Source of the DNA: Imbricaverruca yamaguchii
Lineage: Eukaryota > Arthropoda > Thecostraca > Neoverrucidae
DNA: 64,000 nucleotides
Assembly: GCA_034440575.1 (NCBI GenBank)
Contig: JAOTOL010000975.1
Coordinates: 124,001-188,000, forward strand
Reading direction: 5' to 3'
A model generated the notes under the pieces. The model did no database searches, was not told the origin of the DNA, and saw nothing but the letters and a program-made list of their open reading frames with translations. This document shows, piece after piece, positions 18,341 through 45,900 of this stretch. The translations under genes were made by a program, and so were the position numbers. Position 1 is the first letter of the stretch, and each line of letters opens with the position of its first letter.

Positions 18341-19689
18341 AAAGAGTGCCCCGAAGACTAACGGAAAAATTGGAGGCGGCTGAAGAAAACGGATTGCGTT
18401 GAACCTTGACTGATAAAGTGGTAATGTGAGGCCTATGAAGTTCATTCCAGCGTTCTCAGTGCAAGTAATGGCGGTAATTGATTCGAACGATCATAAACTC
18501 GTCACTGAATGCCGATCCCAGTACCAATACGCCTTTGGCGAACTCGTCGCTGAATACGAATACGAATGCGTTAACTTGGAGTACGTGATGAAGACTGTCA
18601 ATGACTTCACTCAATGGGAGAGCACAATTTTGTACCTGAGTGAAAATAGAAGATAGTCAAGATTCCTGTTATTCGGGAATGGCCTGGAAGCATACATTTC
18701 TAGCGTTTGCGGATTTACCATTCGGAAATTTGGTGACGACAGATAGCCTGTGAAGCTCGTTGATTGGTTAGATCTGCTTTCGGTATTTTGGTGATAACCT
18801 GGCATATATATTTTCACTTTATAAATGATTAAGTATAATTTTTCGGCGACGATACTAATGTAGCTCAGGCTTGGAGGGCGCACAAAAAATTGAGGGGGAC
18901 AAATCGCCACTTTTCAGAAATTTTGGCGACATGTCTCCCCCCCAGAGGTCAAACCCATGGTATTCGGCTACAATGTCGTGCCAACCAACGGCAACTACTC
19001 AACGGACGAGACTTTGAGGTTCGGCACTTGTCAGACCTACAGGCTTCAATCACGCCACTCTTCGACGCACCGTCACGAGATGCCCTGCTGGTTTGTCGTC
19101 CCGCCGAAAAAAAACGTCCAGCACCAGGACGCTTCCAGGTTGTTTGTTTGTCACAGCAGACTTGCTGGCAGGTTGACAGTCGGAAGAGATACCGTTACAT
19201 GACACAGAGCGAACTGCCGCACCACCAGCTTCGTGTCGAGGCACAAAATCGATGCGATTCCCACCTTTAGAAAACTTGCATAGGCTGCGCCGTACCGAGC
19301 ACCTCTTGTGGTGAATGTTTTTGCGTTTTTACCCGTAAAGGAACTCCCCTGATTGCATGACATAACTTCAGCGTATGGCCAGTTAGTCTGAGGAAAGCGT
19401 GGTGAAGTCTCAAGGAGCCTCCATCCTGTAGTGAAACGTACCCCAATGGTACTGCACCTGTGCAATAACCTGATCTCGTTGCTGCTGTCCTGTGATGGAT
19501 CCAAACTTCACCTGGCTGTTGTTGAAAATATTTTGTCAGACAGCCGTCTCCGAGTAATGTCGGGTTTTGACGTCACCTCGCGACAAGCACATCGCTCTGG
19601 GACGGAATTCTACCTCGTGGCGCCTGCCTATGGTGAAATTAATCCTCCCACAACCTACACCTACAGACAGAGCAATGCATAACGGTAAC
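18341..19689. other. Intron sequence, nothing recognised
   Basis: Unique sequence with short open frames on both strands and no domain, repeat or mobile element that I can identify. Confidence 0.5.
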
Positions 19690-20400
19690 ACCTGTGACCA
19701 AACTACTGTCACGCCGCCCTCCTGTGACCGCTCCCGTCACTGCGCCCTGCTGTGACCGCACCCGTCACGGTACCCTCCTGGAACCACACCCCATCCCACG
19801 GTACCTTCCTGTGACCGCACCCGTCACTGCGCCCTGCTGTGACCGCTCCCGCCACTGCGCCCTGCTGTGACCGCACCCGTCACGGTACCCTCCTGTACCC
19901 ACACCCCATCCCACGGTACCCTCCTGTAACCGCACCTCCTCCCATGGTGCCTTCCTGTGACCGCACCGGCCACGGTACCTTCCTGCGCCCATACCTCCCA
20001 CGATTCCCTCTCCAACGGTACCCTCCTGCGACCACACCCTCTTCCACGACACCCTCCTGCAACTACACACTCTCCCACAGTACCCCGTGTGAACACTCCC
20101 CCCGCACGGTACCCTCATGTGACCGCGCCAGACACGGTACCCCCTGTGACCACACACAGCTGCGGCACCCCCCTGCGAAAACACCATCTCCCACGATCAT
20201 ACCGCCTCCCCAGGCGCCCCAGTGACCACACCATCTCTGACAGCTTCCTCAGAGGTGGTGCGGGTGATCCGCCCATACCATCTCCCACGACACCCTCCTG
20301 CGACCACACCGCCTCCCTAGGCGCCAAAGTGACCGTACCACCCCCACGACCACACCGCCGCCCTAGGCGCCCCAGTGACCGCACCACCTCTGACACCGTC
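19690..20400. repeat. Minisatellite of about 29 bp ending at a splice acceptor
   Basis: Variable copies of CCTCCTGTGACCGCACCCGT followed by CACGGTAC. The array becomes more degenerate toward the exon at 20413. Unlike the FIGNL1 arrays, its unit carries no copy of the exon edge. Confidence 0.85.
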
Positions 20401-20412
20401 GCCCGGCGGCAG

Positions 20413-20745
20413 GTGCGGCAGAACTACATCCGGCGGAGGCTGCACATCACGCTCAAGGCGCTGCACCGGCTCTCCCAGAGCGAGTTCAACCTGGAGCAGC
20501 TGTTCAGCGGCGGCGTGCTGCCGCCACCGGCGAGCGCCGCCGGCAGTCGCGCGCCGACCCCCAGCCGGCCGACCGACCCGTCCCAGGCGGTGTCGCTCGG
20601 CGCCGAGCCGCCGCCGCCGCCGCAGGGCGTCACCGTGCGCGACGTGGACCGGCAGCGTGGCCGGCCGCTCACGCGCTACCAGCGCAACATGATGGTCTTC
20701 AACTGGCTGCACACGCTCGACGAGACCGGTCTGGAGGTGACGTAA
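20413..20745 (+). CDS. Second exon of the 11368 gene (possibly the last)
   Basis: Starts after GGCGGCAG with GTG CGG CAG in phase 0 and continues the upstream exon, so the junction reads AVNKK/VRQNYIRRRLHI. The product holds a strongly basic amphipathic stretch (RRRLHITLKALHRLSQSEFN), a Pro/Ser linker, then VRDVDRQRGRPLTRYQRNMM and VFNWLHTLDETGLE. It either ends at TAA (GLEVT*) at 20743-20745 or splices at the GTGACG inside that codon run. The regular hydrophobic/basic spacing and low repeat content argue for real coding sequence. The family is not recognised. If the TAA is used, the two exons give 295 residues. Confidence 0.6.
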   Translation: MRQNYIRRRLHITLKALHRLSQSEFNLEQLFSGGVLPPPASAAGSRAPTPSRPTDPSQAVSLGAEPPPPPQGVTVRDVDRQRGRPLTRYQRNMMVFNWLHTLDETGLEVT

Positions 20746-21974: not shown

Positions 21975-24900
21975 CTGCAGACAGCACCGACACCAGAGCC
22001 GTCAGTTTAGGGCTGCTGCCGACCAGGCCTGCTGCAAACCAGGCCTGCTGCCGACGTGACGTCACGGCCATCCCATCCCAGCGGTCAGTACAGGGCTGCT
22101 GCCGACGTGACGTCACGGCCGTACCATCCCAGCGGTCAGTACATGGCTGCTGCCGACGTGACGTCACGGCCGTACCATCCCAGCGGTCAGTACAGGGCTG
22201 CTGCCGACGTGACGTCACGGCCGTACCATCCCAGCGGTCAGTACAGGGCTGCTGCCGACGTGACGTCACGGCCGTACCATCCCAGCGGTCAGTACAGGGC
22301 TGCTGCCGACGTGACGTCACGGCCGTACCATCCCAGCGGTCAGTACAGGGCTGCTGCCGACGTGACGTCACGGCCGTACCATCCCAGCGGTCAGTACAGG
22401 GCTGCTGCCGACGTGACGTCACGGCCGTACCATCCCAGCGGTCAGTACAGGGCTGCTGCCGACGTGACGTCACGGCCGTACCATCCCAGCGGTCAGTACA
22501 GGGCTGCTGCCGACGTGACGTCACGGCCGTACCATCCCAGCGGTCAGTACAGGGCTGCTGCCGACGTGACGTCACGGCCGTACCATCCCAGCGGTCAGTA
22601 CAGGGCTGCTGCCGACGTGACGTCACGGCCGTACCATCCCAGCGGTCAGTACAGGGCTGCTGCCGACGTGACGTCACGGCCGTACCATCCCAGCGGTCAG
22701 TACAGGGCTGCTGCCGACGTGACGTCACGGCCGTACCATCCCAGCGGTCAGTACAGGGCTGCTGCCGACGTGACGTCACGGCCGTACCATCCCAGCGGTC
22801 AGTATTGGTTTTGGTTGACAGCGAAACATTGGTAGCGTTTTGCCGCCATCTCGGCATCCACTCGTGGTGCATTAGAGCGGAGCGTCAATCGCCCGAAAAT
22901 CACGATGGCTTTCTCGTAATGCCAGGCGCTGATTGGTGTTGAAGATTCCGGTAGCAAACAGAACGGAATAGACGCATCAGCCACAACCCGCCGCGCAGTC
23001 GGCAAACACTGATCAACGCCAGCCGTCCACTATCTGGGGGAGCTTGTTGATCACACTCAGCCAGGGCGTGGCGTGAAGTCATCGGGCAGCGTGTTCTCCA
23101 GGGCACTGCTCAGTTGATACCTTGTTAACGCTACGAGTGCTTAACAAATATAAAGGAAGTCAGTGCATCTCCAAAGGTGTGCAATTATTCAACTGTTATT
23201 GAGGATATGCAAGTACATGTATGTATACCAACAGACAATTCTGATACACAAGTGAACATGGTCCAATGGAGTCAGATTAGATGTTAGATGGAAGAATAGT
23301 GTACTCGTGGGCAACTGAGGATAGCAAGCACAGCCAAAAGAGACCCAGGCCGGCAGCGTGTGCAGACACATGCGTCGGTATGGATCTCTTTTGGCGTACG
23401 AAACATATACACAGACAGCCGCTGAACCAACGAGGTGGCACATAGGCAACCTCATATCAGACATTTCTTGTTCGCCACCATACATCTGTCCTGCATAAAC
23501 CTCACGTCGTACGTCTGTCTAGCATGCTCTTGACGGCATGCATCTGCCCTGTAAAGTCTTGACAGCCCTAATCTGCGCAGCATCAGTTACAATTTGTTTT
23601 AGCCGAAACGAGTGAAACCAACCACTTATCGACTAATGAATCCACATTCTTTCACCTTGGGCCCTGACGTCGGTTAAATAAATACGAAGAAGTAAATAAT
23701 ATGATAGATCTTGTGTGTTGGGCATGGCTGGTCAGCCATATTTCTAGTCTCCACCCCCCCCCCCCCTAAGGTTTTCCGTGGATGGTGAAAGAAGGGCGCG
23801 AGACAGCGCGCCGAAATTTGCACACCTTTTCCCACATCAATTTGGCATGTTGTGTCAATTTTTTTAAAAGTCAGGTCATCTAGGGTCAACAAGTTAGTCT
23901 AGGTCAAGTGAGGTCACCCGGAAAAATCGTTCAACCAGTCGTCACGCTTTAACGGATAGATATTTCAGTAAAATTTCGGCGTGTGCTGATCTTTAGGGAC
24001 GCAAAAAAACGCACCAGGGGAATTTTATGTTTTCCGTTTTTTATTACTTATTAGTTGTGCATATTTGCTCACTTCAGTTAAGGCGACGAGTAGCCTAGGG
24101 GTAAATCACTCGTCTCACAATCGAAAGGTTGTGGGTTCGAATCTCACCTGTCGCTGCTCTTCGCCCGCGACCAATCTGCGTGAGAGATTGGCAACGCTAC
24201 ATGACTCAACGGTCGATGTGTCGCAAAAACAATAACCAACCAACCAACCAACCACTTAAGTTAAAATCGAAGGTTCTGGCTAAAGTAAGCTGTTTTATTG
24301 GGGGAAGCTGACTTCGAACAACGTTTTTCGGTTCGTTCTACCCATTATAAGAAGGGAAATATAAGAAAACTTGAAAACAAAACCTTGAAATTTAAAAATA
24401 AAAATAAAATTTTGTGACATACGTCTCCCCCATATATATAGTGATGCATCACACATTTTCACGGCATAGTCCTGACATCACTCATCTGTCCGGTATAGTG
24501 ATACATCTCACGTCTGATCGGCATATTTCTGACGCCGCAAGTTTGTTCCATTGTTCTGACATTGCACAGCTAACTTACGCATCATAACGCTAGCATCCTC
24601 ACTCGGCGCATCAAGATATAGGTCTTGGCTCAAACGGATGGCACGGATTACTGAAGAGAGACGAAATATGAGCGTTTGATTCATCTGATCCGGTCTTTGT
24701 TCTCAGTTGGCGACTAATAGGAGCTACCACTCAAAACGTTACCGGAGGTGTTGCCGTCAATAATGACAAAATGTTGCACCACTTTGCGTCGTGCAAATCG
24801 CGTTGTCCGATTTATCAGACTGCCCACACGCCTGCCCACACTCAGCACCACAGCACGCTGCCGTAGTACCGTCATCTGACACCGTCTGCTCACACTCAGC

Positions 24901-27900
24901 ACCACAGCACGCTGCCGTAGTACCGTCATCTGACACCGCCTGCTCACACTCAGCACCATATGGTGCTGCCGTAGTGCCGTCATCTGACACCGCCAGCCCA
25001 CACTCAGCACCACAACACGCTGCCGTAGTACCATCATCTGACACCGTCTGCTCACACTCAGCACCACAACACGCTGCCGTCGTACCGTCATCTGACACCG
25101 TCTGCCCACACTCAGCACCACAACACGCTGCCGTAGTACCATCATCTGACACCGTCTGCTCACACTCAGCACCACAACACGCTGCCGTCGTACCGTCACC
25201 TGACACCGCCTGCCCACACTCAGCACCACAACACGCTGCCGTCGTACCGTCATCTGACACCGTCTGCTCACACTCAGCACCACAACACGCTGCCGTAGTA
25301 CCATCATCTGACACCGTCTGCCCACACTCAGCACCACAACACGCTGCCGTCGTACCGTCATCTGACACCGTCTGCTCACACTCAGCACCACAACACGCTG
25401 CCGTAGTACCGTCATCTGACACCGCCTGCCCACACTCAGCACCACAACACGCTGCCGTAGTGCCGTCATCTGACACCGTCTGCTCACACTCAGCACCACA
25501 ACACGCTGCCGTCGTACCGTCATCTGACACCGTCTGCTCACACTCAGCACCACAACACGCTGCCGTCGTACCGTCATCTGACACCGTCTGCTCACACTCA
25601 GCACCATAACACGCTGCCGTAGTACCGTCATCTGACACCGTCTGCTCACACTCAGCACCACAACACCCTGCCGTCGTACCGTCATCTGACACCGTCTGCC
25701 CACACTCAGCACCACAACACGCTGCCGTCGTACCGTCATCTGACACCGTCTGCTCACACTCAGCACCATATGGTGCTGCCGTAGTGCCGTCATCTGACAC
25801 CGTCTGCCCACACTCAGCACCACAGCACGCTGCCGTCGTATCATCATCTGACACCGTCTGCCCACACTCAGCACCACGACACGCTGCCGTAGTACCGTCA
25901 TCTGACACCGCCTGCCCACACTCAGCACCACAACACGCTGCCGTAGTACCATCATCTGACACCGTCTGCTCACACTCAGCACCATAACACGCTGCCGTCG
26001 TACCATCATCTGACACCGCCTGCCCACACTCAGCACCACAACACGCTGCCGTAGTGCCGTCACCTGGCGCCGCCAGCCCACACTCAGCACCACAACACGC
26101 TGCCGTCGTACCGTCATCTGACACCGCCAGCCCACACTCAGCACCACAACACGCTGCCGTAGTACCGTCATCTGACACCGTCTGCCCACACTCAGCACCA
26201 CAACACGCTGCCGTAGTGCCGTCATCTGACACCGTCTGCCCACACTCAGCACCACAACACGCTGCCGTAGTACCGTCATCTGACACCGCCTGCCCACACT
26301 CAGCACCACAACACGCTGCCGTAGTACCGTCATCTGACACCGCCTGCCCACACTCAGCACCACAACACGCTGCCGTAGTGCCGTCATCTGACACCGTCTG
26401 CCCACACTCAGCACCACAACACGCTGCCGTCGTACCGTCATCTGACACCGTCTGCTCACACTCAGCACCACAACACGCTGCCGTCGTACCGTCATCTGAC
26501 ACCGCCTGCTCACACTCAGCACCATAACACGCTGCCGTCGTACCATCATCTGACACCGTCTGCTCACACTCAGCACCACGACACGCTGCCGTAGTACCGT
26601 CACCTGACACCGCCTGCCCACACTCAGCACCACAGCACGCTGCCGTCGTACCGTCACCTGACACCGTCTGCTCACACTCAGCACCACAACACGCTGCCGT
26701 CGTACCGTCATCTGACACCGTCTGCTCACACTCAGCACCATAACACGCTGCCGTAGTACCATCATCTGACACCGTCTGCTCACACTCAGCACCATAACAC
26801 CCTGCCGTCGTACCGTCATCTGACACCGCCTGCCCACACTCAGCACCACAACACGCTGCCGTCGTACCGTCATCTGACACCGTCTGCTCACACTCAGCAC
26901 CACGACACGCTGCCGTAGTACCGTCACCTGACACCGCCTGCCCACACTCAGCACCACAGCACGCTGCCGTCGTACCGTCACCTGACACCGTCTGCTCACA
27001 CTCAGCACCACAACACGCTGCCGTCGTACCGTCATCTGACACCGTCTGCTCACACTCAGCACCATAACACGCTGCCGTAGTACCATCATCTGACACCGTC
27101 TGCTCACACTCAGCACCATAACACCCTGCCGTCGTACCGTCATCTGACACCGCCTGCCCACACTCAGCACCACAACACGCTGCCGTCGTACCGTCATCTG
27201 ACACCGCCTGCTCACACTCAGCACCACAACACGCTGCCGTCGTACCGTCATCTGACACCGTCTGCTCACACTCAGCACCATAACACGCTGCCGTAGTACC
27301 ATCATCTGACACCGTCTGCTCACACTCAGCACCACAACACGCTGCCGTCGTACCGTCACCTGACACCGCCTGCCCACACTCAGCGCCACAACACGCTGCC
27401 GTCGTACCGTCACCTGACACCGCCTGCCCACACTCAGCACCACAACACGCTGCCGTAGTGCCGTCACCTGGCGCCGCCAGCCCACACTCAGCACCACAAC
27501 ACGCTGCCGTAGTACCATCATCTGACACCGCCTGCTCACACTCAGCACCATAACACGCTGCCGTCGTACCATCATCTGACACCGTCTGCTCACACTCAGC
27601 ACCACGACACGCTGCCGTAGTACCGTCACCTGACACCGTCTGCTCACACTCAGCACCACAACACGCTGCCGTCGTACCGTCATCTGACACCGTCTGCTCA
27701 CACTCAGCACCACAACACGCTGCCGTCGTACCGTCATCTGACACCGTCTGCTCACACTCAGCACCATAACACGCTGCCGTAGTACCATCATCTGACACCG
27801 TCTGCCCACACTCAGCACCACAACACGCTGCCGTCGTACCGTCATCTGACACCGTCTGCTCACACTCAGCACCACAACACGCTGCCGTAGTACCGTCATC

Positions 27901-30900
27901 TGACACCGTCTGCTCACACTCAGCACCACAACACGCTGCCGTCGTACCGTCATCTGACACCGCCTGCTCACACTCAGCACCATATGGTGCTGCCAGCGCC
28001 CACGACCGATACGTCTATCTGTTGCCCGGAATCAGGTCTGCGGCGGCCAACCAATTCCGGCCGGTCGGACGGCCGTTATCGCCACCACGTGTCGAGAGTA
28101 CGTGTCGACTTCAGCTCCGAGAGCCGCCACCGACTGTGGGCAGAGGGCCGGCCGAGCCGATGGTCTCGTCGGGCGCTAATTAACGTCTGGGCGACAGCGG
28201 TATGACTCAGTCTCGCCGCGCAGGCTGAACGACGCCGTAAGCCGCGGTCTGAACCGACTTTGAGTCCCGTGGCTCGGCACTATCGAAAGCCCACAGAAAG
28301 AAGATTAATGTCCAGGATACACTAGCTGTTATCATTCCAAAGCAACACACGCCACAAACTAGGAATTTACGTCGCGATATCAACTCCATAAATTACACCC
28401 ACATAGATGGTCTTCACCCCAAGCGTCCGGTGAAATCGGTATGCTAGACTCAGCACCTCCGTTTGTATTATAAAGTGCAAGGATCGGACAGGACAGCAAT
28501 CTAGTGCGCACTATCAGTTCATATAAAAGCTACCTTCCAACAGCTCAAGACAATCTGCAACATCAGGAAAATTACAAATTGCTTTTGAAATATAAAAATG
28601 GTAATTTTGGTTTGCCATAGACATGCGACATCAAAGTGGGAGAGAGGAAGTATCTCCCTCCCATCACTAACTATGGCATCATTACACGCGGCGTGAACTG
28701 CTGGTTTGACCGTTAATTGAAACGTTCAAACGTTCAAAAATCACAAGTCAACACAGGAATTTTGAGTGAACGAATCCATAAAAATAAAGGGATGTTTAAC
28801 TGCAAAGTAGTGCAGTATCTGACAGTGTCCACTAACATTGCGCTCAGGTTATGGGAGGACAACCAGTCGAGTTGGCGTGCATCACAAAAAGCCTTCCGAG
28901 TCTTGGAGAGTTACGCTAATAGGTGATTGGCGTTCGACAAAACAGAACCATGTATGAGTGTCGTTAAATGAGCACGGCGCAAGGATAAAGCTGCCAGCTC
29001 TTCGTACTTAGAAGTAATTAAGCAATTAAAAGCGTGACGGTCGGGTCAGGCCCGGTAATGCAACTCTTACCGTCACGCTGATCCACTACACGCGAATACA
29101 ACTTCGCTCGGGATCGCTGCGCTAGTCATCACTTGTAAAAAATATTTGCATGCCGTGCTGTCAACTGTAATTTTTTATTCCGCCCGTTACAGAATCCAAA
29201 TGCAATGCACGGTTTGACCATTGCCACTCAATGAAGCCTCATATAACACTTAATCACGCGTCATACCACTAGGGACAACAAAGAAGACCGGAGAACCACT
29301 GCGGTGCTCGCGTGACTACTAAAGGCGGCCACTTGAAGCTGAACTTGAAAAAAACGGCTGGGTGGAAGTAACACTCGCGACAGTCCATCATCACCCTGAG
29401 ACAATGAGGTGTTCGATTGGGTAATGTATCTTGATCAACAGGCATATCACCCTTCCCCTCCTTAGGGGAGTGGGATATGTCTGTTGACCAAGATGCCTCA
29501 CCCAATCGGATACCTCATCGGCTAAGGGTGATGGATTTAATGGGAATGTTTGACATGCTTGAGCTTTTACTTCGACATGACGACACAGTACTGGTTAAAA
29601 AAATGGTTCCGAGCCGGTGCGAGCATGAGATATGTGGAGAGCTGATCGATGCCGTTTGGCGCGATACCGGAAACAACGCCAGTAGCGACAACGTAGCACC
29701 GACAATTATTGCGCTGCTTGCGCAGCTTTACTCTGCCTATTAGCCTCAGCTAGCCTTACAGACAAAAATATAGTTGGACGACTACGGAAAATATGGTTCT
29801 ATTTATACTTCTAACTAATTTCAAATATGTGCATTATCATCGGCGGTGGCACCAGCCTGTCTTCTCAAACTGGGTTTCGTCATCTTAACTGATGTCGCTG
29901 CTCTTGCGATTCCTCACGAGCAGCGACAACACAAGATGATATATCATGCTTGCGCCTCCCCAAAATGCATTGTTCCTAGACCACTGGTGATTGGCTGTTC
30001 ACGCGTTGCAATAAGTTGTAACCACGGCGTGAGAAGAACTTAGAATATCGCAAGATACTTAGTCAGGAGGCTGCCCAGCCTCTCCTCTGCTCAAGGTGTC
30101 GTGGAACTGGCCAGTGAATATTGCATCTGATCTGTCGGAGGGAAGCAGTGGCCTACTGCAGATAGTTCACCTGTTCGGGCATATCACCTGGTGGCGGTAT
30201 CACGGAAACTATTTTCATATTTTACTGACCGTGGCCTGTACGGAACAGACAACACGCAAGTCCACCCGTGGCAACGAACAGCTCGGCTGGCCGGCAACAG
30301 CACGCCGGTGACCGGCGGCGTGACCAAGCCTCAACGCTACCGGCCAGGAATGGTGGCGCTGCGCGAGGTTTGGCGGCACCAAAAGAGCGCCGAGCTGATA
30401 GTCCCCAAGCTGCCGCCCCAGCGCCTGGTGCAGCAGATCGCGCGGGATTTCAAAACTTGGGTCGCTCACCTGCTCTGGCGTAATATACATCTCCTTGAGA
30501 CTTTTCGCCTGCTTTGGAGTGATATATATCCACTTCGGACCCCTCATCTACCATGGCGAGATATACACCTACTTGGCACCACTCACCTGCTCTGGAGTGA
30601 TATAAACCTACCTGGGATATCTCACCTACTCTAGCGTAAAATACATCTACTTGGGACCCTTCGCCTGCGATTGCGTAATTTACATCTACTCGGGACGCCT
30701 CGCCTGTCATGGCGTGACATCCACTTACGTGGGCCCGCTCACCTGCTCCGGCGTGATATACATCTACCCGGGACAGCTCACTAGCTCTGGAGTGATACCC
30801 ACCTACTCGGGACCGCTCACCTGGTCTGGCGTGATGTCGTGGATCCGGTCGGCGCCGATGCAGCGGATCGGACCGAGCGCCGCCTCGCGACACAGGTTGG

Positions 30901-33900
30901 CCACGTCGGCGCCCGAGTAGCCGCCCGTGCGCGCCGCTACGTCGTCCAGCTCGGCCTCGGACAGCTTGTGCCGGTGGGTGCTCAGCAGCCGCGCCACGAT
31001 CTGGCGACGCGCCGAGCCGTCCGGCAGCGGCACGTACAGTCGCTTCACCAGGCGGCGGCGCGCCGCCTCGTCCAGCTCCTGCGGTCGGTTGGTGGCGCCG
31101 ACCACCAGCAGCCGGTCATCGCTGCTGGTGCCGGCGCCGTCCTGGGGAGATAGTCAGACGGTCCTCAGCCTGGGGAGATAGTCAGACGGTCCTCACAGCT
31201 GGTGCCGGCGCCGTCCTGGGGAGATAGTCAGACGGCCCTCAGCCTGGGGAGATAGTCAGACGGTCCTCACAGCTGGTGCCGGCGCCGTCCTGGGGAGATA
31301 GTCAGACGGTCCTCAGCCTGGGGAGATAGTCAGACGGTCCTCACAGCTGGTGCCGGCGCCGTCCTGGGGAGATAGTCAGACGGTCCTCAGCCTGGGGAGA
31401 TAGTCAGACGGTCCTCACTCTGGGGAGATAGTCAGACGGTCCTCACCCTGGGGAGATAGTCAGACGGTCCTCACTCTGGGGAGATAGTCAGACGGTCCTC
31501 ACCCTGGGGAGATAGTCAGACGGTCCTCACAGCTGGTGCCGGCGCCGTCCTGGGGAGATAGTCAGACGGCCCTCAGCCTGGGGAGATAGTCAGACGGTCC
31601 TCACAGCTGGTGCCGGCGCCGTCCTGGGGAGATAGTCAGACGGTCCTCAGCCTGGGGAGATAGTCAGACGGTCCTCACAGCTGGTGCCGGCGCCGTCCTG
31701 GGGAGATAGTCAGACGGTCCTCAGCCTGGGGAGATAGTCAGACGGTCCTCACTCTGGGGAGATAGTCAGACGGCCCTCACCCTGGGGAGATAGTCAGACG
31801 GTCCTCACTCTGGGGAGATAGTCAGACGGTCCTCACAGCTGGTGCCGGCGCCGTCCTGGGGAGATAGTCAGACGGCCCTCAGCCTGGGGAGATAGTCAGA
31901 CGGTCCTCACAGCTGGTGCCGGCGCCGTCCTGTGAAGATAGTCAGACGGTCCTCACTCTGGGGAGATAGTCAGACGGTCCTCACCCTGGGGAGATAGTCA
32001 GACGGTCCTCACTCTGGGGAGATAGTCAGACGGTCCTCACCCTGGGGAGATAGTCAGACGGTCCTCACAGCTGGTGCCGGCGCCGTCCTGTGAAGATAGT
32101 CAGACGGTCCTCACTCTGGGGAGATAGTCAGACGGTCCTCACAGCTGGTGCCGGCGCCGTCCTGTGAAGATAGTCAGACGGTCCTCACTCTGGGGAGATA
32201 GTCAGACGGTCCTCACAGCTGGTGCCGGCGCCGTCCTGGGGAGATAGTCAGACGGTCCTCAGCCTGGGGAGATAGTCAGACGGTCCTCACCCTGGGGAGA
32301 TAGTCAGACGGTCCTCACAGCTGGTGCCGGCGCCGTCCTGGGGAGATAGTCAGACGGTCCTCACTCTGGGGAGATAGTCAGACGGTCCTCACGGCTGGTG
32401 CCTGCGCCGTCCTGGGGAGATAGTCAGACGGTCTTCACGGCTGGTGCCGGTGCCGCCCTGGGGAGATAGACGCTACCAAGTAGGTGCATACATGACATGC
32501 ACTATCAGCTACCATACATATCAGACATAACCCTCGCCCTTAATCTCAAGGGATTTTCACGAGGGGAGCTCCGTCGCCATCCCGTCTCCTCTGCAACGTA
32601 CAACACCCGTCATTTTCCAACATGCGAAGCATATTAATCAACAACATAAAGTAACAAGCTAAGTTGACACCAACGCAAAGCAGGAATGCAATGGCGCTAA
32701 CAGCCCCTATATCACCTTCATGCGATTAGCAGTAAGCTTCGGAATGACATGTGATGGTGGGCTTTGCGGGGTAATTTCCTGGTGGAAAATACTTTAATTT
32801 AAGCACATATGCAACATTACGGAGTTAAGAAGTTAGGGTACGGAGTCATGCTTGGATGGTACATGCTTGGATTACTGTCATTGTCACAATTGATGTCATA
32901 GCTTCATTGTTAGCATCGCACATGGTGACAAAATCCAGATATACATCCTGAATACCAACGGGGCCAGCTGAACTTAGATGATGCTAGGCTACATTAGGTT
33001 TGTTCAAATAGAGCTAGGTTAACTTAGGTTAAAACACATTATATCAGGTCAAGGAACGCTGCGCTAGACCCTACTAAGCTAAGTCGAGTCAGGGGAGGTT
33101 CGAATATGTTAAGGTAGGCGAGGCTATCACGAGCTAAGTTCAGACTAGCGGCCACCCCCTCCCCCCTTAAGCACTGCAGGGCGACCGAATGATCTCGACT
33201 AACATCCATTGATCTAAATTAAACTAACCTAGGATACGTATTTTGTGGCATGGAAATGCATTACCCAGACTGTGGGTTCCTTCTGCTATATTTGGTTCTG
33301 ATTGAAAGGATGGAAGGGAGGAAATGGGAGACCCGCCACTCACACCAAGACATGCAATTATCGGAGGAATATTGGAGCATACGCTGATGTTTGTCTCACT
33401 ACACTTTGCCTCCTAACGTTCGTCCCGTTGTCCTCACCCCACCCACACAAACACAAATTCCCGTTCCAGACATTTCCCTCAATCCCCACCCAACACATGC
33501 ATACATGCACACACACAATCCATGCATGCATGGGTCAGAAGTCGGGAATTCGCCGCCGGTAAGGCGACACTTTCCCCGGTGGAAAAACGACACCCCAAAC
33601 ATAGCCCTTCGCTGAACAAAACCGAAAGTTTGCGGTCCCAGTGTCGCTGAATGTTGCACTCCGAGCCTGGAGGCGCGTGGATTGTGCTCGCCTCACCCAA
33701 CCAGCCAGCCATCTCCCCATGCTTTACACCGATACACGCCCATCACCAGAGCTCTAATCTCTCGCCCGACCCCCTGTCAGTCGGGACAACACTCACCAGC
33801 TGGACGAGGAACTCGGTCTTGATGCGGCGCGAACTCTCGTGCTCCGACTCGGACCGCTGGGAGAGCAGTGAGTCCACCTCGTCAATGAACACCACTGCCG

Positions 33901-36900
33901 GCTGGTGGCACCTGACAACAACCCAGCTCGTCAGCGAACACCACCGCCGGCTGGTGGCACCTGACGACAACCCAGCTCGTCAGCGAACACCACCGCCGGC
34001 TGGTGGCACCTGACGACAACCCAGCTCGTCAGCGAACACCACAGTACGCCCGGCGCGCCCGATGATAAGCCAGCTGGACTGCACATACCGCCACGAGCCG
34101 AATACGTCTGACGACGCGCAAACTGGTCAGCACAACACCACACATCAATCAGCACAACACCACACATCAGTCAGCACAACACCACACATTAGTCAGTACA
34201 ACACCACACATCAGTCAGCACAACACCACACATTAGTCAGTACAACACCACACATCAGTCAGCACAACACCACACATTAGTCAGCACAACACAACACATC
34301 AATCAGCACAACACCACACATCAGTCAGCACAACACCACACATTAGTCAGTACAACACCACACATCAGTCAGCACAACACCACACATTAGTCAGTACAAC
34401 ACCACACATCAGTCAGCACAACACCACACATTAGTCAGTACAACACCACACATCAGAAACACGAGCGGGACACCTTGCGATAAACCAGCTGGACTGCACA
34501 TACCGCCACAAGCCGGATACATCTGACGACACACAAACTGGTCAGCACAACACCACACATCAATCAGCACAACACCACACATCAGTCAGCACAACACCAC
34601 ACATCAATCAGCACAACACCACACATCAGTCAGCACAACACCACACATCAGTCAGCACAACACCACACATCAGTCAGCACAACACCACACATCAATCAGC
34701 ACAACACCACACATCAGTCAGCACAACACCACACATCAGTCAGCACAACACCACACATCAATCAGCACAACACCACACATCAGTCAGCACAACACCACAC
34801 ATCAATCAGCACAACACCACACATCAATCAGCACAACACCACACATCAGTCAGCACAACACCACACATTAGTCAGTACAACACCACACATCAGTCAGCAC
34901 AACACCACACATTAGTCAGTACAACACCACACATCAGAAACACGAGCGGGACACCTTGCGATAAACCAGCTGGACTGCACATACCGCCACGAGCCGGATA
35001 CATCTGACGACACACAAACTGGTCATCACAACACCACACATCAATCAGCACAACACCACACATCAGTCAGCACAACACCACACATCAGTCAGTACAACAT
35101 CACACATCAGTCAGCACAACACCACACATCAATGAGCACAACACCACACATCAGTCAGCACAACACCACACATCAGTCAGCACAACACCACACATCAGTC
35201 AGCACAACACCACACATCAGTCAGTACAACACCACACATCAGTCAGCACAACACCACACATCAATCAGCACAACACCACACATCAGTCAGCACAACACCA
35301 CACATTAGTCAGTACAACACCACACATCAGTCAGCACAACACCACACATCAGTCAGCACAACACAACACATCAATCAGCACAACACCACACATCAGTCAG
35401 CACAACACCACACATCAGTCAGCACAACACCACACATTAGTCAGTACAACACCACACATCAGTCAGCACAACACCACACATTAGTCAGTGCAACACCACA
35501 CATCAGAAACACGAGCGGGACACCTTGCGATAAACCAGCTGGACTGCACATACCGCCACGAGCCGGATACATCTGACGACACACAAACTGGTCATCACAA
35601 CACCACACATCAATCAGCACAACACCACACATCAGGAACACGAGCAGGACACCTTGCTGGCTGGGGGTCGCCAAGGAGGCATTGCAAGGTGTGTCTATTC
35701 GTATCTGGAATGGCTCTGAAAACTGTCTTCGTACCTCCAGATCGTCTTGCGACATTTCGTAACCCCTCCCCCGGAAAAAAGAAGTAATTTCAGTGACATG
35801 CATTGTGAGGCACCTTATACGTTTGAAGCCGACTGAATAACTAATCCGATCTCCTGTCTCATCCAAGATTGACAACAAAACAAACACCACACGTGATGCT
35901 TTATATTCCTCCCTCCAAACAATTCAGGTGATTGATTGATTGCTTAGGCTTAAGGCGCGCCGACTGCGATGTCATTTAGCGCCCATAACAATTCAGGTGA
36001 AGATTAAGGTTGAAAACGTCGCATGATAACAACGCCGGGAATGCGACAAAAATACTACATCTAAAATAGTTTGCCGGGTAAAAGGTGCACTTCAATCTCG
36101 AAAATTAAAATACACAACTCTAATCCAATAGACATGTATGCCCGTGTCGACTTCGTGGTTCTGAAGTATATCACTGCAAAGCTCGAAGACACTCACATAG
36201 GCAAGCTACAGGCCCCTGAAAAGCGTTCTGGACGGATCGGGCTGGCTCCCGTCGAATTTTTGTGGCAGCTAAAGAATGACCATCGGCTTTGCCATTCATT
36301 CGCAGCAGTTACTCGGCAAACCAGTCAGGCGACATCTCGGTGTTGCGAGACTGACCAATCGTCGCATCGTATCGTGATAAAAGAGATCGCCAAGCGGTAA
36401 TAGAAAGACGCAAGGAGATAGAGATCCAACTTTTCTGTGGTAGACTTTCGCCCAGACCAGTCCAGTAAACGCAGACAATGATGCATGACCATGTGCAGAT
36501 GTAGGATTGGACAAATATCGCCATCATCTGGTCGGGTAGGGATGAGAAGAGGTGAAAAAATGAGATAAGGAGGGAGATACCAGTGCTTTGCACAAGCGTC
36601 AACGGATGACTGCGCGTTCGTGCGCGTTTGAACCAGTGGCATTGAAATGCGCACCGGTTCAGTCTACACTGGGACGGCCGCGCCGGTTCAGTATACAATG
36701 GGGCGGCCGCGCCGGTTCAGTCTACACTGGGGCGGCCGTGCCGGTTCAGTATACAATGGGGCGGCCGCGCCGGTTCAGTCTACACTGGGGCGGCCGTGCC
36801 GGTTCAGTATACAATGGGGCGGCCGCGCCGGTTCAGTCTACACTGGGACGGCCGCGCCGGTTCAGTATACAATGGGGCGGCCGCGCCGGTTCAGTCTACA

Positions 36901-39900
36901 CTGGGGCGGCCGCGCCGGTTCAGTCTACACTGGGGCGGCCGCGCCGGTTCAGTATACAATGGGGCGGCCGCGCCGGTTCAGTATACAATGGGGCGGCCGC
37001 GCCGGTTCAGTATACAATGGGGCGGCCGCGCCGGTTCAGTCTACACTGGGGCGGCCGCGCCGGTTCAGTCTACACTGGGGCGGCCGCGCCGGTTCAGTCT
37101 ACACTGGGGCGGCCGTGCCGGTTCAGTATACAATGGGGCGGCCGCGCCGGTTCAGTCTACACTGGGACGGCCGCGCCGGTTCAGTATACAATGGGGCGGC
37201 CGCGCCGGTTCAGTCTACACTGGGGCGGCCGCGCCGGTTCAGTCTACACTGGGGCGGCCGCGCCGGTTCAGTATACAATGGGGCGGCCGCGCCGGTTCTG
37301 TTTACGCTGGGGCGGCCGTCGTGCCAAGCCGACCCGCGACACGTGTGCCACTTGCCAATCGGGCCTGAAGAACTGACGAACCACTAAGCATATACCTCGC
37401 ATATGTGACTTGTGTAGCACGAACTTACAGCGCTTAAGATAACTCCTATCGCAAGAAGACTGCTCATCTACTTCTGTATCTTTCTATTAGAGCTTACGGT
37501 GACCAAATGTCGAAATATCTAACACCGATGTATTCCGGATACATCTGACGACAAACCAACTAGTCAATACGCCACTGCACGCGGGAAATATCTGACGAGA
37601 CGAGCCAGCCCGTACACAGACACCACCGCCCAGACACACCAGACGACAAAACAGCTCGCTGCCAGCATTCACTGACGGCTGCAAGAGATACGTCGCCCTC
37701 ATCAGCCACATGGTTGTACGAAAATGAAATGTGTTACGTTTGCCATGGATAATAAATTAAAAATTCAAGTAGAGAACCACCACTCAATGGAATGTGTTAC
37801 GTTAGCCATCGATATTAAATGAAAAAAATCAGTTAGAGAACTTGCGTCATCTTTTGTTCCTTCCGGAAAGCCCAGCCGGTCACTATAATAGCCACCGACA
37901 CTCGGGTAAAGTACCACTAGTCAGCAAAACATCCATATTAATCGGCACCAATCACAGCTGCAGGCGATCAAAGCGGGTGGCCACGAGAGGCGGAACGTCA
38001 CATCACTGGCTCAGCTGGTTCTGACTGCTGCGACATTAACTCGGCGACAGGCTTAGCACGGCTCAGTAAGGCGGCCTTCTGTAGAGTCAACATGGCACCT
38101 CCTCCCCCCCCCCTCCGGCTAACGAAGGGCGCAACATCAACGGCACACGCTGAGTGTGCAGCCGAAGCCATCCACTGTTACTCCTGAAGAGCCCAGGCCT
38201 TCACTATAATCCCCACCGACACTCGGTAAAGTGCCGCGAGTCAACAAAGCATCCATATTAATCAGCACCCACACAGCTGGAGGCGACCACAGCGGGCGCC
38301 CGCCAGTGGCAAAATGTCGGATAGACCAATGTCACTGTTCAATGCGAGGACGCCGCCACTTCGAAATGGTGCGTAAAACAAAACCTCTCTTTGGCTCTCT
38401 TAAGACATGGCCCCTATGAATGACATCACGCTTAACGGCAGGTCGCGAGTCAAAGCCAAGTAAAGGGTCGCCGTCTAGGTACGAGTCACTGTCTAATAAG
38501 TCTAAGAAAAACGTCTAAATACTACCTAGTAACCAACGAGATTAAGGATAACTAAGGAGACTGATTATAATGTATGGCGAATACGAACAGTACGCATAGT
38601 AGCGTAGCACTGGTTTTGGCGTGATATTACTTGGATGAAAGCCTCACATCCAATGAATACTAGTCAGACGACGAATCAGCACAGATACAACAAATACACA
38701 GCTACAAACGCCTACCAAAACAGGATCGTCATAAGTACCAACAGACGCCATAGATTCACCTGGCCACCAGTGTCACGAGACTACCATTGAGCCAGTACAT
38801 CCAGGTTACTGTATCTCACATAACATGTCAACACAGAACCGGCCAAATGTTGCGCCCCAATATACACTACACAACGATCACAACCAGAACTTCGCTGCTG
38901 AACCATCAGCATGAGCAAGAGATATCCGTACAAAATGTGCAGACATCAGCTCACAAGTGCTCTCGCGATGTTTTCCCTTCACAGCAGACCATTATTGCAG
39001 AGAGGGATTTAAATGTTGCTCGTGTCAGACTGGGGATTATTTAACACGCGCACAGGAGAGGGGGTGGGCGAAATCCGCCCACTCTACGATTTTTTCGCAG
39101 ATAACTCCCGATTTTACCTGTCGATATACGCCATGTTTTGTGTACTTGCTTCGACATGTCCGGCACGTCAGATAAAATAAGAAAAACAAAAGTCGACAAC
39201 AAAAAATGATCGAATTACGGGCCGTCAAAGTCAAAACATTATACAGCGTCACACCACAAAAATCGGCGCTCATGCGTTTCCCGTACATCGCAAAAGGGAA
39301 GTAAGTGTTCATGACAATACTGGAGACTTTTTATGCGTATTGTTACGCGATATTGATTCGAGACCATGCTAGGTCACCGAGGTCAACTCAGGTCAAGTTT
39401 ATAACAGGTTAATGGAACCAAACTTGTTGAATGGACGCAAAATGACCTTAGTAGTCCATGCGCCCTAAAACCAAAATAACTAACTAAACTTGTTCAACTG
39501 AAAGGTTGACATAAACGCAAATCACAGTTATATGATTCGTGTTATTTTGAATGCTACTCTCTGCTGAAAACTTTTGTTTTTGTCATTGTGAACCGAAGCG
39601 TTTCCATACTCATTCACGTACTTCAACCCTTTCTTCGTGAAGCCGATTGCGTCGGCCGCCCGTCTATCCGGCGGGCTGCCAGGTTCCGGTAACTGGAACC
39701 GGTAACTGACCCGATGCAGAGCTGATGTATAGGTGATGAGGTTAAATGCCGGGTCTATTATCTGTATTACATCATTGGTTATTTCCAAAACATCAATGAT
39801 GCCCACTATGGAGCAATTCATCATAATCGCAGCGATACATAACCATATCAAGCCAAACCAAGCAAAACAATTCAAATATGGCGTGTGACCTCATTTGGCC

Positions 39901-42900
39901 TTGAAGATATTGACCTAAGGTCGTGGCATTTGCACACAATAGAGTTCACCAACATACCCATCAACCTTGAAAATTTCGTTGCTCTAGCTGTCGTAGAAAC
40001 CAAGATCTTAAAGGAGCGGAATCGGCCCGACCCCACCCCCACCCTGTGCATTCTTATCGGAGGGCCACCAGGCGCGTGTTAAAGCTGGGAAGTGAATCGC
40101 GGGAAGTGGGGGAGGGGAGGGGGAGGGATGAAACTAACACCTGAACCTAAGCTGGGAACACGAGTGGCTTAAGACGCTGACACAAATTGCACGGGAATCT
40201 CCGCATACACCAGCACGGCCTATTGATCCGCCGTGACGTCCAGCGGGCTCGCATAGCTCGCACACATATATCAACGTGCACACATATATCGCTCGCATAG
40301 CTCGCACACATATATATAGTCTCGCACACATATATCAACGTGCTCACCAGATCCGAAACCAAGGTAGGAAAACATGGGCTTTGGTGGGTTTATCAGGACT
40401 GGTATGCACACCATAAAACAGCTTCGGTTTGCTACTGTGGAAATTACCTTAACTGGACAACTGCACTTCTTAATGGAAGAGCTGAAATGGAGTACGCCCA
40501 CTTACCCACAGCTGGCTGGACTTCACGTGGTGTGCCACTCACCTGGCCACGGCGAACAGCGCGCGTACCATCTTCTCGCCCTCGCCGATCCACTTGGAGG
40601 TGAGAGAGGAGGCGCTGATGCTGAAGAAGGTCGACTGCGACTGACTGGCGATGCATTTGCCTGCGAACGTGCGATGCTGAGGACCACGGCTGGGCTTGGC
40701 GTTTCACCGGTGGCATGAGAGACACAAAAAGTTCGGTCACGGGGAAATCTATCACACAAAGTAGTGATGGGTCAAAATCGTGAATATCTTTGCCATTAAA
40801 TCTGCATCGGATAAAAGTATCCGGACAACCCACTCTGATGCATGGAGCACACTAGGCCGATGGGAGTCTCTGCGGTCTGGCGCACCCGCGGCCGGGACGT
40901 TCGCTTACTGGCCGTCTCCTTACCAATCAACGTCTTGCCAGTGCCGGGAGGGCCGAACAGCAGCAGGCCCTTGGGCAGGCCGCGCAGACCGGTGAAAATG
41001 TCGGGCCGAAGCAGTGGCCAGATCACCATCTCCTGGGAATGACAGCCAGATACAGCAGTGACCACGGTCGCGGGCGGAAGCGGTCAGATCACCATCTCCT
41101 GGGGACGACACAGTCGGATACAGCAGTGACCACAGTCACGGGTGGAAGCGGTCAGATCACCATCTCCTGGGGACGACACAGTCGGACACAGCAGTGACCA
41201 CAGTCACGGGTGGAAGCGGTCAGATCACCATCTCCTGGGGACGACACAGTCGGACACAGCAGTGACCACGGTCGCGGGCGGAAGTGGTCAGATCACTACC
41301 TCCTGGGGACGACACAGTCGGACACAGCAGTGACCACGGTCGCGGGCGGAAGTGGTCAGATCACCATCTCCTGGGAATGACACAGCCAGATACAGCAGTG
41401 ACCACAGTCACGGGTGGAAGCGGTCAGATCACCATCTCCTGGGGACGACACAGTCGGACACAGCAGTGACCACGGTCGCGGGCGGAAGTGGTCAGATCAC
41501 CATCTCCTGAGGACGATACAGCCGGATACAGCAGTGACCACAGTCGCGAGCGGAAGTGGTCAGATCACTACCTCCTGGGGACGACAAAGCCGGATACAGC
41601 AGTGACCACAGTCGCGAGCGGAAGCGGTCAGATCATCATCTCCTGAGGACGACACAGTCGGACACAGTAGTGACCACAGTCGCGAGCTTAAGCGGTCAGA
41701 TCACCATCTCCTGGGGACGACACCACTGTTAGTGGACAGGAGGCAGGCTGTGGGTGGGCACACTCACGGCATCCAACTCCACATGTGCGCAGTAATTAGC
41801 ACGACTGGGCTAGGGGACGCGTCCGCCCCACCGTCCACACTACGGCATCCCCGTTACGATCCCCGCTACGGGAACCCATTCAGAGCAGCCAGTGAAATCC
41901 CAGCGCACCATTCATCCACGTCCCCAACGGTGTGGACGGCGCCCACGACAGTCATAACAACGGCAGCCTTTCCGCTGGCAAGCGCACCTTAATGGTGGTC
42001 TTGGCGAACTCCAGGCCAGCAATATCGTCCCACGAGACGGCCGGGCCGCGCTCCATGATCTCGTTGGTGATCAGCTCCACCATGCGCGGTTCGATGTTCT
42101 TCAGACGCTCGTCCAGCACCGAGTCGACGCCGTCAGCTGATGACGTCATGGGACCACCGAACCGGCCGTCGGGCCTGCGGCGGTGATGTTGCAATAGCTG
42201 CTTGGAGGGGGTGCACAACATGAGCTGCTCAAATACACTGGGACGTTTACTAGGTAGGATGTCTGCCACTGGATAATTATGGCCTGAACAGATGGCTCAC
42301 AGAATCAGTGCCAAAAGGGCCAATATAAACTGGCATGGACTGGCCGAAGCTTCAATGAAAATTCCAACGACCTTCAGTTTGACTCAATTGGATTGAAACA
42401 CCTTAATCGTGTGTGATTGTGGTTTTAGGGCGCATCGACCATGGTTGGTCATTTAGCGCCCAGAAACACCTTAATCGCCTTCTTTGAATACAGAAGTATG
42501 GCGTTAGATTTACCCCCTTGATATTAGGATGACATGCTTAAGAAAATGTATATAATTAAAGACAATTTAATTTTCCCACGTGGCATATGATGTCCTGACA
42601 AAGCCTTCAAGGGCAAAGTATACATCAGAGCCATGCGTCTTGTCGCACTTCCAACGCACCAGACGTTGGACAGTATTGTTGATTGTGGCGCTGTGTGGTG
42701 TACCAATTGCATGGGGTCACATGACAACGGCACATGCTCGAGCGGCCAAGACTGGCTGTCCATCTGACTGACACCACAAACTGCCAAACCCTGACTGATG
42801 ATCCGAGATGCCCAGCCTGACTGAGCGACCAACACAATGACCGAGACCGATACACCAAGGCAACTGCACCAAACGTTAGGCAACGGTGCCTGCACAATAT

Positions 42901-45900
42901 ATTGACTGATGATGAGATAGGTAGTTATTCAGGCTTTTGGGCGCATCAACTGCACTGGCTACACAGCGCCAAGATAAAGACAATAATGGGTGGGCAAATC
43001 AGCAGCTAATACTGACTGGATGAATGTGAAAGTTGCCTTGTGTGACTGTGACTGAACTGTGACACTCACTCTGAGTGTGACTGGAAAACCAGCTTCCTCA
43101 CTCATTAGGCTTGGCCAATTTGTGGGGTTCTCAAGTCGGCTGGTGGCCAGAAATGCGGCAAATTACTGGAAGCCGATGCCGGACACCATACGAAATGATG
43201 AATGCCTTCTGACACTCAGGACAAGCGGATGACTGGGAATCGATTGGCATTACCGAAATAATCTCCACAGGCTCTGAGCCTGGAGTCTAGGTAGCACGAC
43301 GACGTTTCTCACCCGTCACTGTCGGACTCCTTGACGGGTGGCACAAAGCCACGCCGTGCGCCCAGACTCTTCCGACTGCCATACGAGGCGCTGCTTACCA
43401 CCTTCCGAGCCTGCTCAGACGTGTAACCCTTGCTCTTCAAGTGGTTCGTTATCTGCATGAATGGGCAGCTAGTTAGTTAACATGGTACACGGGGCGTGGC
43501 TAGAAAGTCAAAGAGCGTGTACTATCGGAACAGTATGAACATCAGCGATGCAGTGGTGATGCAAGGTTGCCCTAGACGCACAGGCAAAAACTGCACCCTT
43601 GAATCATCGTACCAGAACACAGTGACCGCATTTGCGAAACACCGCGAAGCTGTTGCACGACGGTCACTCCGGCCTAAGAATGGTTGCATGCTACAAAACT
43701 GTGTTGACGTTCTCGACGTGTTGACTGTCTCACCAGCTGGTCTTTGGCTGTTTTGAACGCCGAAGTAGGAGGCGGGGCTGGGTCTTCTTCGTCATCCTCC
43801 TCGTCATCCCAGCCGTTACGGCCACGCTTGCCGTAGCCTTCGACACGCAGGTAAAAGTAGGCATATATACAAAATCGGAAACGCTATGCACGAAAGTTAG
43901 AACACGACATCAAGCATAGATGATCACAATGCACAGATTACAGCGTAGTCAAATTATTTAAAGGTATCCACATATTGAGCTGAAAGTTAACTGAACTAGA
44001 TGCCACTTGATTTCATAATCTAAAAAGCATTTGTGATCTTCACCTAGGGTGGATATTCAGGTGCTAAATTAATAAAGGGAAATACCCGGGGTTTTCTGAA
44101 ACTCGGTCACCATTTCTCACAGTCATCATTATATTGTGATGATGACTATGATTATGAACAATGGAAAATTATCTTTCCTATGGTCCTGAACTTCGGTCTT
44201 TGTAGAGCAAAGGACATAATCGAAAACATGAAAGCCCACAGCGAAGTACACGGCAATACGACAGGCATACAATAGCCTCGAAATGTCAGGATGGTAAACA
44301 TCCAATACATATCGAACATGGTAAATTATTAACGATACCTTGGCTCAATGCTGTCGAATTGCGTCAGAGAAAACACGGGAAAAGCTTCCATTAAGTGTTG
44401 GTTTCCTCTCATACTTAGCAAGTTCCAAACACTGCATCAGCATCCCACCGCAACCGCAACCATCAGGCGACAGCCGAGAGGCGACATCGTACCTCCGCCG
44501 CGGCCCCCACGCCCGCGGGGCCGCTGGTTCCAGAAGCCACTGCCGCCGCGGCCCGCTTCTCGGCCGGCGTTGCAGCCACGACCTGAGCCGCCAGCACCCC
44601 AGCCACCACCGGACACCGGTCCTGCCCGTGCCGTCGTGCCGCTCGTCTGGTCCGGGTGCGATCCGACCTGACCCTGACCCGTCAGCGACCTGACCTGCCC
44701 AGCCTGGCCGTAGCCCGCCGTGCCGCTGCCGGCCGCCGGAAACAGCGGACCTGGCCGGGGCGGGGCGGACGACACGTGATGGGTCTGGCGGGGTGTAGCA
44801 GCCGCGACCAGGGGAACTTGCCGGGGTGTGGCGGCTGGCAGTAGAGGAGGCAGGCGCTGTGTGTCGGCCGAGGCCACAGGAGCCTGTCGGGGCGTGGTAG
44901 CTGGGGTGGGCGGAGCTGTGAGTGACTGGACAGACGCCACTGAGGTCGGGTGCTGGCCGGCCCGAGATGTAGGTGCCGACCCGCACGGCTTCACAGTCGC
45001 CTGTCCACAGTTGGCGGTCGGTGCCGGCGCCGGCGGCCTCTGCGCCAAGGCGCGGTTCACCTCATCTAGGTCGGAGAAGCACGGCGTCCGCTCGTCCGGT
45101 AAAAAGCTGCAGAGATCGTCCGCAGATATACTAGAGGTCCATGTTGAGCTCTCTGTAAGACACGATGGTATCTTACCAGATACACCTGGTACGGTACCAG
45201 ATACATCTGGTACGGTACCACATACACCTGGCACCGTACCAGATACACCTAGTACCGTATGCATCATCTGGTACGGCGCGAGCGCTAACAAATATAGTGA
45301 AGAAAACACGTATGACTTAGCACTATATCATATGATATCGCTGGCGTAAATATGTTTAACTCCTACCTTTTCCAGTTGGATCGCCAGTGCTTACATAATT
45401 TTCTGAATCTCCAACTGCAAGAAACACATCAATGACACCCGAAACACATCATTTCCAACTTCTCATTAGTACCAAAAGTTCTCTGGGCGCCACGCTGCTT
45501 CGTTTCATTTTTAAGACACTTGCGACGAAACGAAAATGATGACCTTTCCCTCCAGCACATTTAATTCAGACATTCGGTGCTCCACTGTCGAGCGTACCCC
45601 CTAGCCTTCCATTCAAGAGGGGGGCGTAGTCTGTCATCAATTCGCTCCTAATTGAGATGCATGAGCGAGGCAAGATGCAAACCCGAACGTCTCGTATCAC
45701 AAGACAACTCAAGTGGTACCTGCTTTACTTTGTTTGCTCAGAGACTTTCCAGGTCAAGTCACAGATCAGAATAGTCAGGAACGATGTCTTATAATGCATG
45801 TTTCGTCCAAAAACGTCATCTAGAGTCAGTCGACTTTGGGCTTTGGTGGGCGTGGGTTAACTTTGTCACCGATATTTTATAAAGAAAACGTCGCGGCGTG

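Follow-up and report, generated by a model that had tools for sequence, protein, structure and literature searches.

Tandem arrays spanning exon-intron boundaries in FIGNL1 and in other sampled genes of the barnacle Imbricaverruca yamaguchii

How do the edges of exons come to be repeated into the adjoining introns, and is this peculiar to one gene or recurrent in its genome? The question is raised by a 64,000-nucleotide stretch of DNA from the barnacle Imbricaverruca yamaguchii (assembly GCA_034440575.1, contig JAOTOL010000975.1, positions 124,001 to 188,000 of the forward strand), referred to below as the window, in which four exon borders of the gene FIGNL1 adjoin tandem arrays whose units contain the border's own splice site. 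We conclude, with a probability of roughly two in three, that the arrays are boundary-spanning "mirage" minisatellites produced by frequent tandem duplication near exon edges and tolerated because splicing uses the exon-proximal copy.

FIGNL1 lies on the minus strand. Its exon borders, drawn from GT-AG signals, a single open frame, and protein alignment, define ten exons (N1 to N4 and Ea to Ef; Table 1) and nine GT-AG introns in one open frame. The joined protein is 61% identical to that of Amphibalanus at 100% query coverage, and its AAA part shows no gaps at the junctions when aligned to the FIGNL1 proteins of Amphibalanus, Pinctada, Penaeus, and Branchiostoma; ranked by E-value, the top match was a plant protein containing multiple AAA domains (46% coverage). 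A 5′ exon upstream of N1 was looked for and not found. The introns total 22,420 bases, 8,900 of which are tandem arrays.

Arrays were located along the window with a tandem-repeat finder (TRF), and each unit was aligned to all 19 FIGNL1 junctions and compared with 100 shuffles of itself. Every unit matched its own junction best, with scores of 51 (Eb), 91 (Ed), 86 (Ee acceptor), and 51 (Ee donor), against at most 22 for any runner-up junction and at most 31 for shuffled units. A scan of the 55-base edges of the 19 junctions found copies at four of them, the acceptors of Eb, Ed, and Ee and the donor of Ee, each in the adjoining intron (scores 42 to 80); the remaining 15 had no edge copies anywhere in the window on either strand (scores ≤32). 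These are independent events at separate junctions, involving both donors and acceptors. A sequence-only reading of this DNA had described four arrays at exon borders, each containing the splice site, with periods of 68, 49, 28/46, and 39 bp, and had argued for at least four separate events at donors and acceptors. TRF and unit alignment agree on the arrays, TRF recovered the periods, and the own-junction matches bear out the separate events. Its figure of 14 to 24 exon bases per unit holds for exact matches at Eb (14, or 31 with a 3-base indel) and at Ee (18 at the acceptor, or 33 with mismatches, and 15 at the donor); it fails for Ed, where the unit carries 38.

The arrays differ in composition. 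Units of the Eb array are 81 to 100% alike, and all 10 copies have TGA where the exon has TGG and keep the acceptor AG. The Ee acceptor array combines 24 units of 28 bp with 14 of 46 bp; in 12 of the latter, the first 18 exon bases are reproduced exactly. The Ee donor array is old; its units are 56 to 80% alike, and GT is retained in 5 of 9 copies.

Eleven TRF arrays lie in the FIGNL1 introns, of which six come within 40 bases of a junction and four span one. When coordinates are collapsed, 0.37 spanning junctions are expected against the 4 observed (p = 0.0005); a first permutation, with arrays at their present length, had given p ~2e-5 and below for the same four. The value of 0.0005 is no test of generality, because the gene was picked for its arrays.

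Other genes were therefore needed, and we sampled the assembly (767,457,503 bases in 1430 contigs) as sixteen 10-kb stretches (L009 to L024) that hold all 21 of its AAA-ATPase matches, together with 30 of its 72 myosin-head matches with 1.5-kb flanks (L025 to L054). Junctions were predicted from homology edges and simple scores, and a splice site was predicted at 125 of the 128 edges (70 AAA and 58 myosin). Measured against the FIGNL1 model, the predictor sited 8 of 11 borders correctly (5 of 5 donors and 3 of 6 acceptors), so the acceptor figures below are rough. Each junction was represented by a 22-base segment (14 exon and 8 intron bases), counted as copied when at least 18 of the 22 bases recurred on the intron side at a distance of up to 300 bases. 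When arrays keep their present length, 19% of 990 flank segments echo, which is as often as edges do, and arrays were for this reason collapsed for the control, which consisted of collapsed intron segments un-repeated on one side and scored for a repeat on the other.

A nearby copy was present at 11 of the 125 predicted junctions (about 1 in 11), comprising 8 of 64 donors and 3 of 61 acceptors. Control segments were repeated in 1426 of 49,322 cases (2.9%), which corresponds to 3.6 expected junctions (P = 0.001) and an excess of about 3-fold. Leaving out L014, a second copy of the L013 locus, gave 10 of 121 junctions (P = 0.0028), and a TRF count, which required a junction to be spanned with 8 bases on each side, gave 8 of 125 against 3.1 expected (P = 0.014). 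The L013 donor was first placed on its second copy (4190), the exon-proximal copy being at 4143; re-siting leaves the TRF count unchanged and would make the segment count 12 of 125, and we have retained 11. Both the recurrence beyond FIGNL1 and the enrichment at junctions that the sequence-only reading had anticipated are thus borne out in these AAA-ATPase and myosin genes.

Plain cases include a 39-bp unit with about 20 repeats starting at a donor (L050) and a 45-bp unit with about 17 repeats at an acceptor (L020), besides donors in L026, L022, L023, L044, and L053 and acceptors in L016 and L019. Raw homology edges had echoed at 3 of 70 AAA edges (background 0 of 70) and 10 of 58 myosin edges (background 0 of 58); the junction-based counts supersede these, because several of the myosin echoes are similar alternative exons or arrays free of exon sequence. 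Myosin exons of about 180 bases that are 85 to 95% identical cluster on C1272, C1274, and C1138 (L037, L040, L041, L038, L046, and L043) and are probably alternative exons of muscle myosin. On the acceptor side of L039 and L044, the unit ends at the acceptor AG and includes almost no exon bases.

The excess sits around exon edges and, at donors, is centered on the border. With donors and acceptors pooled, the share of segments copied outward was 8.3% at the junction (10/120), 6.4% within 22 bases (61/958), and, on a par with the junction, 7.7% at 23 to 100 bases into the intron (133/1733), then 3.6% at 100 to 300 (148/4072), 1.7% at 300 to 600 (110/6382), and 3.0% at 600 to 1200 bases (366/12164). 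Exon interiors were copied in 0.7% of segments (14/1930). In the split by type, for which the L013 donor was moved by hand to the exon-proximal copy, donors fell from 12.9% at the border (8/62) through 12.2% at 3 to 22 bases, 8.7% at 23 to 60, and 3.3% at 61 to 100 to 1.6% at 101 to 300. Acceptors began at 5.1% (3/59) and over the same bins gave 7.3, 12.2 (23 to 60 bases upstream), 6.5, and 5.9%; poor siting may have blurred their peak, or the peak may lie off the border.

One pair of contigs may display such a duplication at an early stage. L013 and L014, on contigs C42 and C1422 respectively, can be aligned across kilobases, with main blocks at 92.7 to 97.9% identity. At one donor, L013 carries a 47-bp tandem duplication (13 exon and 34 intron bases, in two identical copies) where L014 has a single copy, and an 80-bp array within the locus runs to about 8 copies on one contig against 3 on the other. 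The two are likely alleles, in view of the diversity described for Balanus improvisus in PMC8270832. Inspected by eye, the joint of this duplication in L013 shares about 1 base and a joint in L019 five (CACCG); end joining and short-homology repair are both compatible with such mixed joints.

Traces of an exon edge also extend far into an intron. A search of both strands of the whole window for the 49-bp Ed unit outside its array gave scores of 52, 48, 48, and 46 for the top four matches and 34 for the next; all four lie in Ed's own intron, on the same strand as Ed, 0.6 to 3.7 kb from it. Compared with the exon itself, the match is significant only for the degenerate segment at 37.5 kb. To judge from these alignments, the Ed edge looks to have fed several kilobases of intron. 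Nine of the 11 intron arrays entered the junction-match test (40247-40336 and 24438-24525 were left out). The 51-, 54-, 29-, and 21-bp units showed no junction match above shuffles (p 0.29 to 0.61), and the 22-bp unit a weak one (p = 0.02 over all junctions and 0.12 within its own intron). Derivation of the 51-bp array from the Ef edge was ruled out (p = 0.75); a relation between the 51- and 54-bp units is possible (p = 0.007).

Are the copied sites usable? The sequence-only reading had supposed that the arrays give the spliceosome many equivalent sites. Every alternative acceptor scanned leads to an early stop (10 of 10 at Eb, 2 of 2 at Ed, and 38 of 38 at Ee), as do 9 of 9 donor-like sites, two of which are out of register; two further donor copies (30782 and 30548) were missed by the scan pattern. 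Conservation across the nine donor copies is 0.89 and 0.67 in the two GT columns, against averages of 0.82 and 0.78 for the parts of the unit, so that GT is no better kept than the rest. As read from the genome, the FIGNL1 copies are therefore not equivalent splice sites, and transcripts with early stops would presumably be removed. The pattern suggests that the copies resemble decoys that splicing must ignore. One pentamer of the possible 1024, CTGAC, is common to all four FIGNL1 acceptor-side units; we take it to resemble the branch-site consensus. In Eb and L020, CTGAC occupies the place of the exon's CTGG.

We propose that stretches of about 30 to 100 bp around exon edges would often be tandemly duplicated in this genome. 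A duplication over a junction would leave the gene intact only when splicing retains the exon-proximal copy; the remaining copies would turn into intron, drift, and grow or contract by slippage or unequal exchange, with later expansion and homogenization as in other minisatellites. Selection would purge duplications within exons, which would account for the near absence of copies in exon interiors. Over time, an exon edge could add kilobases to its intron, as may have happened upstream of Ed. The structure of the arrays, the independence of the events, their recurrence in other genes, the excess near exon edges, the decay of copies, and one difference between haplotype-like contigs are observed; we infer the duplication mechanism, its neutrality, and the correctness of splicing. 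Several points weigh against it. The exon borders and the splicing are predicted from DNA sequence, the sample junctions are likewise predicted, with acceptors sited correctly in only 3 of 6 cases on FIGNL1, and the sample comprises two gene families, one of which (myosin) is represented by 30 of 72 matches. By TRF, the excess is modest (P = 0.014), FIGNL1 (4 of 19) was selected for having arrays, array copy numbers hinge on the assembly, neighboring segments within one locus are not independent, and L013 and L014 may instead be recent paralogs. The sharpness of the donor peak leaves room for a cause aimed at the junction itself.

Such a cause, in the form of splice-coupled R-loops, reverse transcription of unspliced pre-mRNA, or breaks at splice sites, would agree with a roughly threefold higher copying rate in junction segments than in collapsed intron segments, with a donor rate that tops at the border and declines over about one unit length, and with the 4 of 19 FIGNL1 junctions against 0.37 expected. 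We nevertheless regard it as unlikely, given that acceptors were copied at 3 of 59 predicted borders versus 12.2% at 23 to 60 bases upstream (albeit with poor acceptor siting), and that arrays near acceptors can hold no or almost no exon bases (the 51-bp array near Ef; L039 and L044). Intron and exon are contiguous in each unit, and spliced RNA is therefore ruled out as a template. A function for the copies, whether as decoys that lower FIGNL1 output through early-stop transcripts or as acceptor modules with repeated branch sites, could draw on the early stops at every alternative site scanned and on the shared CTGAC. However, copied donors are no better preserved than the remainder of the unit, stops are expected anyway in unconstrained units, and unrelated genes are affected too; the window is itself rich in CTGAC (341 sites counting both strands, against 135 expected by composition, with the arrays inflating the count), and by eye the pentamer is absent from the L016 and L019 units. 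A functional role is accordingly very improbable. That the arrays or their copy numbers are artifacts is a scarcely credible explanation: tandem arrays are hard to assemble, but here unit variants are ordered, the arrays are of differing ages (see the Eb and Ee donor identities above), they occur at many unlinked loci, and a degenerate trail leads away from the Ed array. There is next to no likelihood that we placed the exon borders wrongly and that the arrays fall inside or outside real exons; the gene model is predicted from sequence, yet it has ten exons, GT-AG throughout, one frame, and a gap-free AAA alignment to four animal FIGNL1 proteins. Frequent duplication near exon edges, with exon-proximal splicing, is the reading that we retain.

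Introner elements belong to one dispersed family, with a recurrent sequence at intron borders. Unlike these, each FIGNL1 unit matches only its own junction within the window; no insert common to unrelated introns was found, and the units of other genes differ by eye. A closer likeness is to the mirage minisatellites of amphioxus, as the sequence-only reading had suggested. Excerpts of two papers (PMC3087553 and PMC3902484) describe mirages in Adh3, the globins BflGb6 and BflGb9, PGBD5, and troponin C, with copy-number differences between haplotypes, homogenization that spares the boundary copy, and somatic instability for the Adh3 mirage. The structural features correspond: barnacle units likewise span the exon-intron boundary, at 5′ and 3′ ends, in many copies with splice signals. 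In those excerpts, cephalochordate genes are reported singly and splicing was checked by RT-PCR (reverse transcription-PCR), whereas the barnacle offers four arrays in one gene and a rate against an intron control, known from the genome alone. A copy-number difference between haplotype-like contigs is seen in the barnacle at the L013/L014 gene; exon Ee of FIGNL1 occurs once in the assembly.

Human genes in segmental duplications carry minisatellites with units of about 30 bp at exon-intron boundaries, with variable copy number and 27 intron modifications, according to the portion of PMC2812944 available to us. Those repeats are in young paralogs, often with altered transcripts or new introns and with RNA support, whereas the barnacle arrays are in ordinary genes and every FIGNL1 copy scanned would lead to an early stop. 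In intron gain by tandem genomic duplication, as outlined in part of PMC4974935, a short duplication carries a splice site, as in the barnacle; there the duplication makes a new intron, whereas barnacle copies adjoin existing borders. Among the matches listed, and within the text that they provide, boundary-spanning repeats were previously described for amphioxus and human genes; the case here is from an arthropod. The word "tandem" occurs 0 times in the main text, as available, of each of two barnacle genome papers (PMC8917513 and PMC8270832).

Elsewhere in the window, HAUS1 (63110-63934) is 69% identical to a protein of Amphibalanus amphitrite and 70% to an unnamed ENA protein, the only matches at E ≤ 1e-5 among 7996 scored candidates. 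A plus-strand gene at 11369-20742, for which no Pfam match was found, has an exon ending at 11922 that joins in frame to one starting at 20413. Its intron holds no junction copies (in total, 4 of 21 tested junctions in the window are positive); an array at 19708-20388 stops 24 bases short of the acceptor and contains no exon copies, and directly upstream of the ATG there is a 16-bp array. A repeat of about 165 bases at 24082-24249, with a tRNA-like part (Rfam tRNA, 24084-24154), recurs in several sampled loci at about 84 to 90% identity and is probably a tRNA-derived short interspersed nuclear element (SINE). The minus strand at 6797-9620 has reverse transcriptase-like frames (RVT_1 in 7357-8289), with near copies in L009, L051, and L053, and is probably a non-long-terminal-repeat (non-LTR) retrotransposon; at 53000-57600, also on the minus strand, there are weak matches to P-element-type transposase domains.

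Table 1. Exons of FIGNL1 and tandem arrays of its introns, in window coordinates
Feature	Position	Strand	Basis
Exon N1 (first found; true 5′ exon not found)	46149..46282	-	Frame join; aligned to Amphibalanus FIGNL1 P0124
Exon N2	44493..45152	-	Open-frame join
Exon N3	43734..43837	-	Open-frame join
Exon N4	43313..43452	-	Open-frame join
Exon Ea	41988..42174	-	Open-frame join
68-bp array, 10 copies plus true edge; Eb acceptor and 14 exact exon bases	41019..41723	-	TRF, unit alignment
Exon Eb	40924..41032	-	Open-frame join
Exon Ec	40543..40660	-	Open-frame join
Degenerate copy or copies of 49-bp Ed edge unit, ~3.7 kb from Ed	37501..37680	-	Unit match
29-bp array, Ec-Ed intron, no junction match	36650..37318	-	TRF, unit alignment
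22-bp array broken by three degenerate 49-bp Ed edge units (~34.5, 35.0, and 35.5 kb); weaker unit at 34.1 kb	34044..35631	-	TRF, unit match
49-bp array, 3.4 copies; Ed acceptor and 38 exon bases	33874..34042	-	TRF, unit alignment
Exon Ed	33797..33911	-	Open-frame join
28/46-bp array, Ee acceptor; 38 alternative acceptors plus the true one	31109..32469	-	TRF, unit alignment
Exon Ee, flanked by arrays on both sides	30821..31141	-	Open-frame join
39-bp array, ~9.5 copies, 69% matches; Ee donor and 15 exon bases	30465..30835	-	TRF, unit alignment
54-bp array, Ee-Ef intron, no junction match	24832..27982	-	TRF, unit alignment
16/51-bp array ending 34 bases before Ef acceptor, no exon match	22009..22804	-	TRF, unit alignment
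Last exon Ef, to stop codon	21832..21974	-	Open-frame join

Why exon edges should be favored can be pictured in two ways. Exons may be the stretches where divergent haplotypes of a very polymorphic species still pair, or splicing and transcription may open the DNA there; haplotype pairing and a trigger linked to splicing or transcription are both compatible with the data. We raise tentatively, as something that we would sooner doubt than assert, the idea that tandem duplication has a permanent hot spot at the exon edge, chiefly at the donor border, that much intron DNA is exon derived, and that introns grow outward from exons.

With several per cent of the sampled junctions affected, a single genome makes it possible to test where intron sequence and new splice sites come from, and the duplication of a junction that begins the process may still segregate there. 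How the spliceosome selects one site when many are equal could be tested naturally at exon Ee, where 38 near-identical acceptors precede the right one. The pattern as a whole suggests how introns could grow from coding edges.

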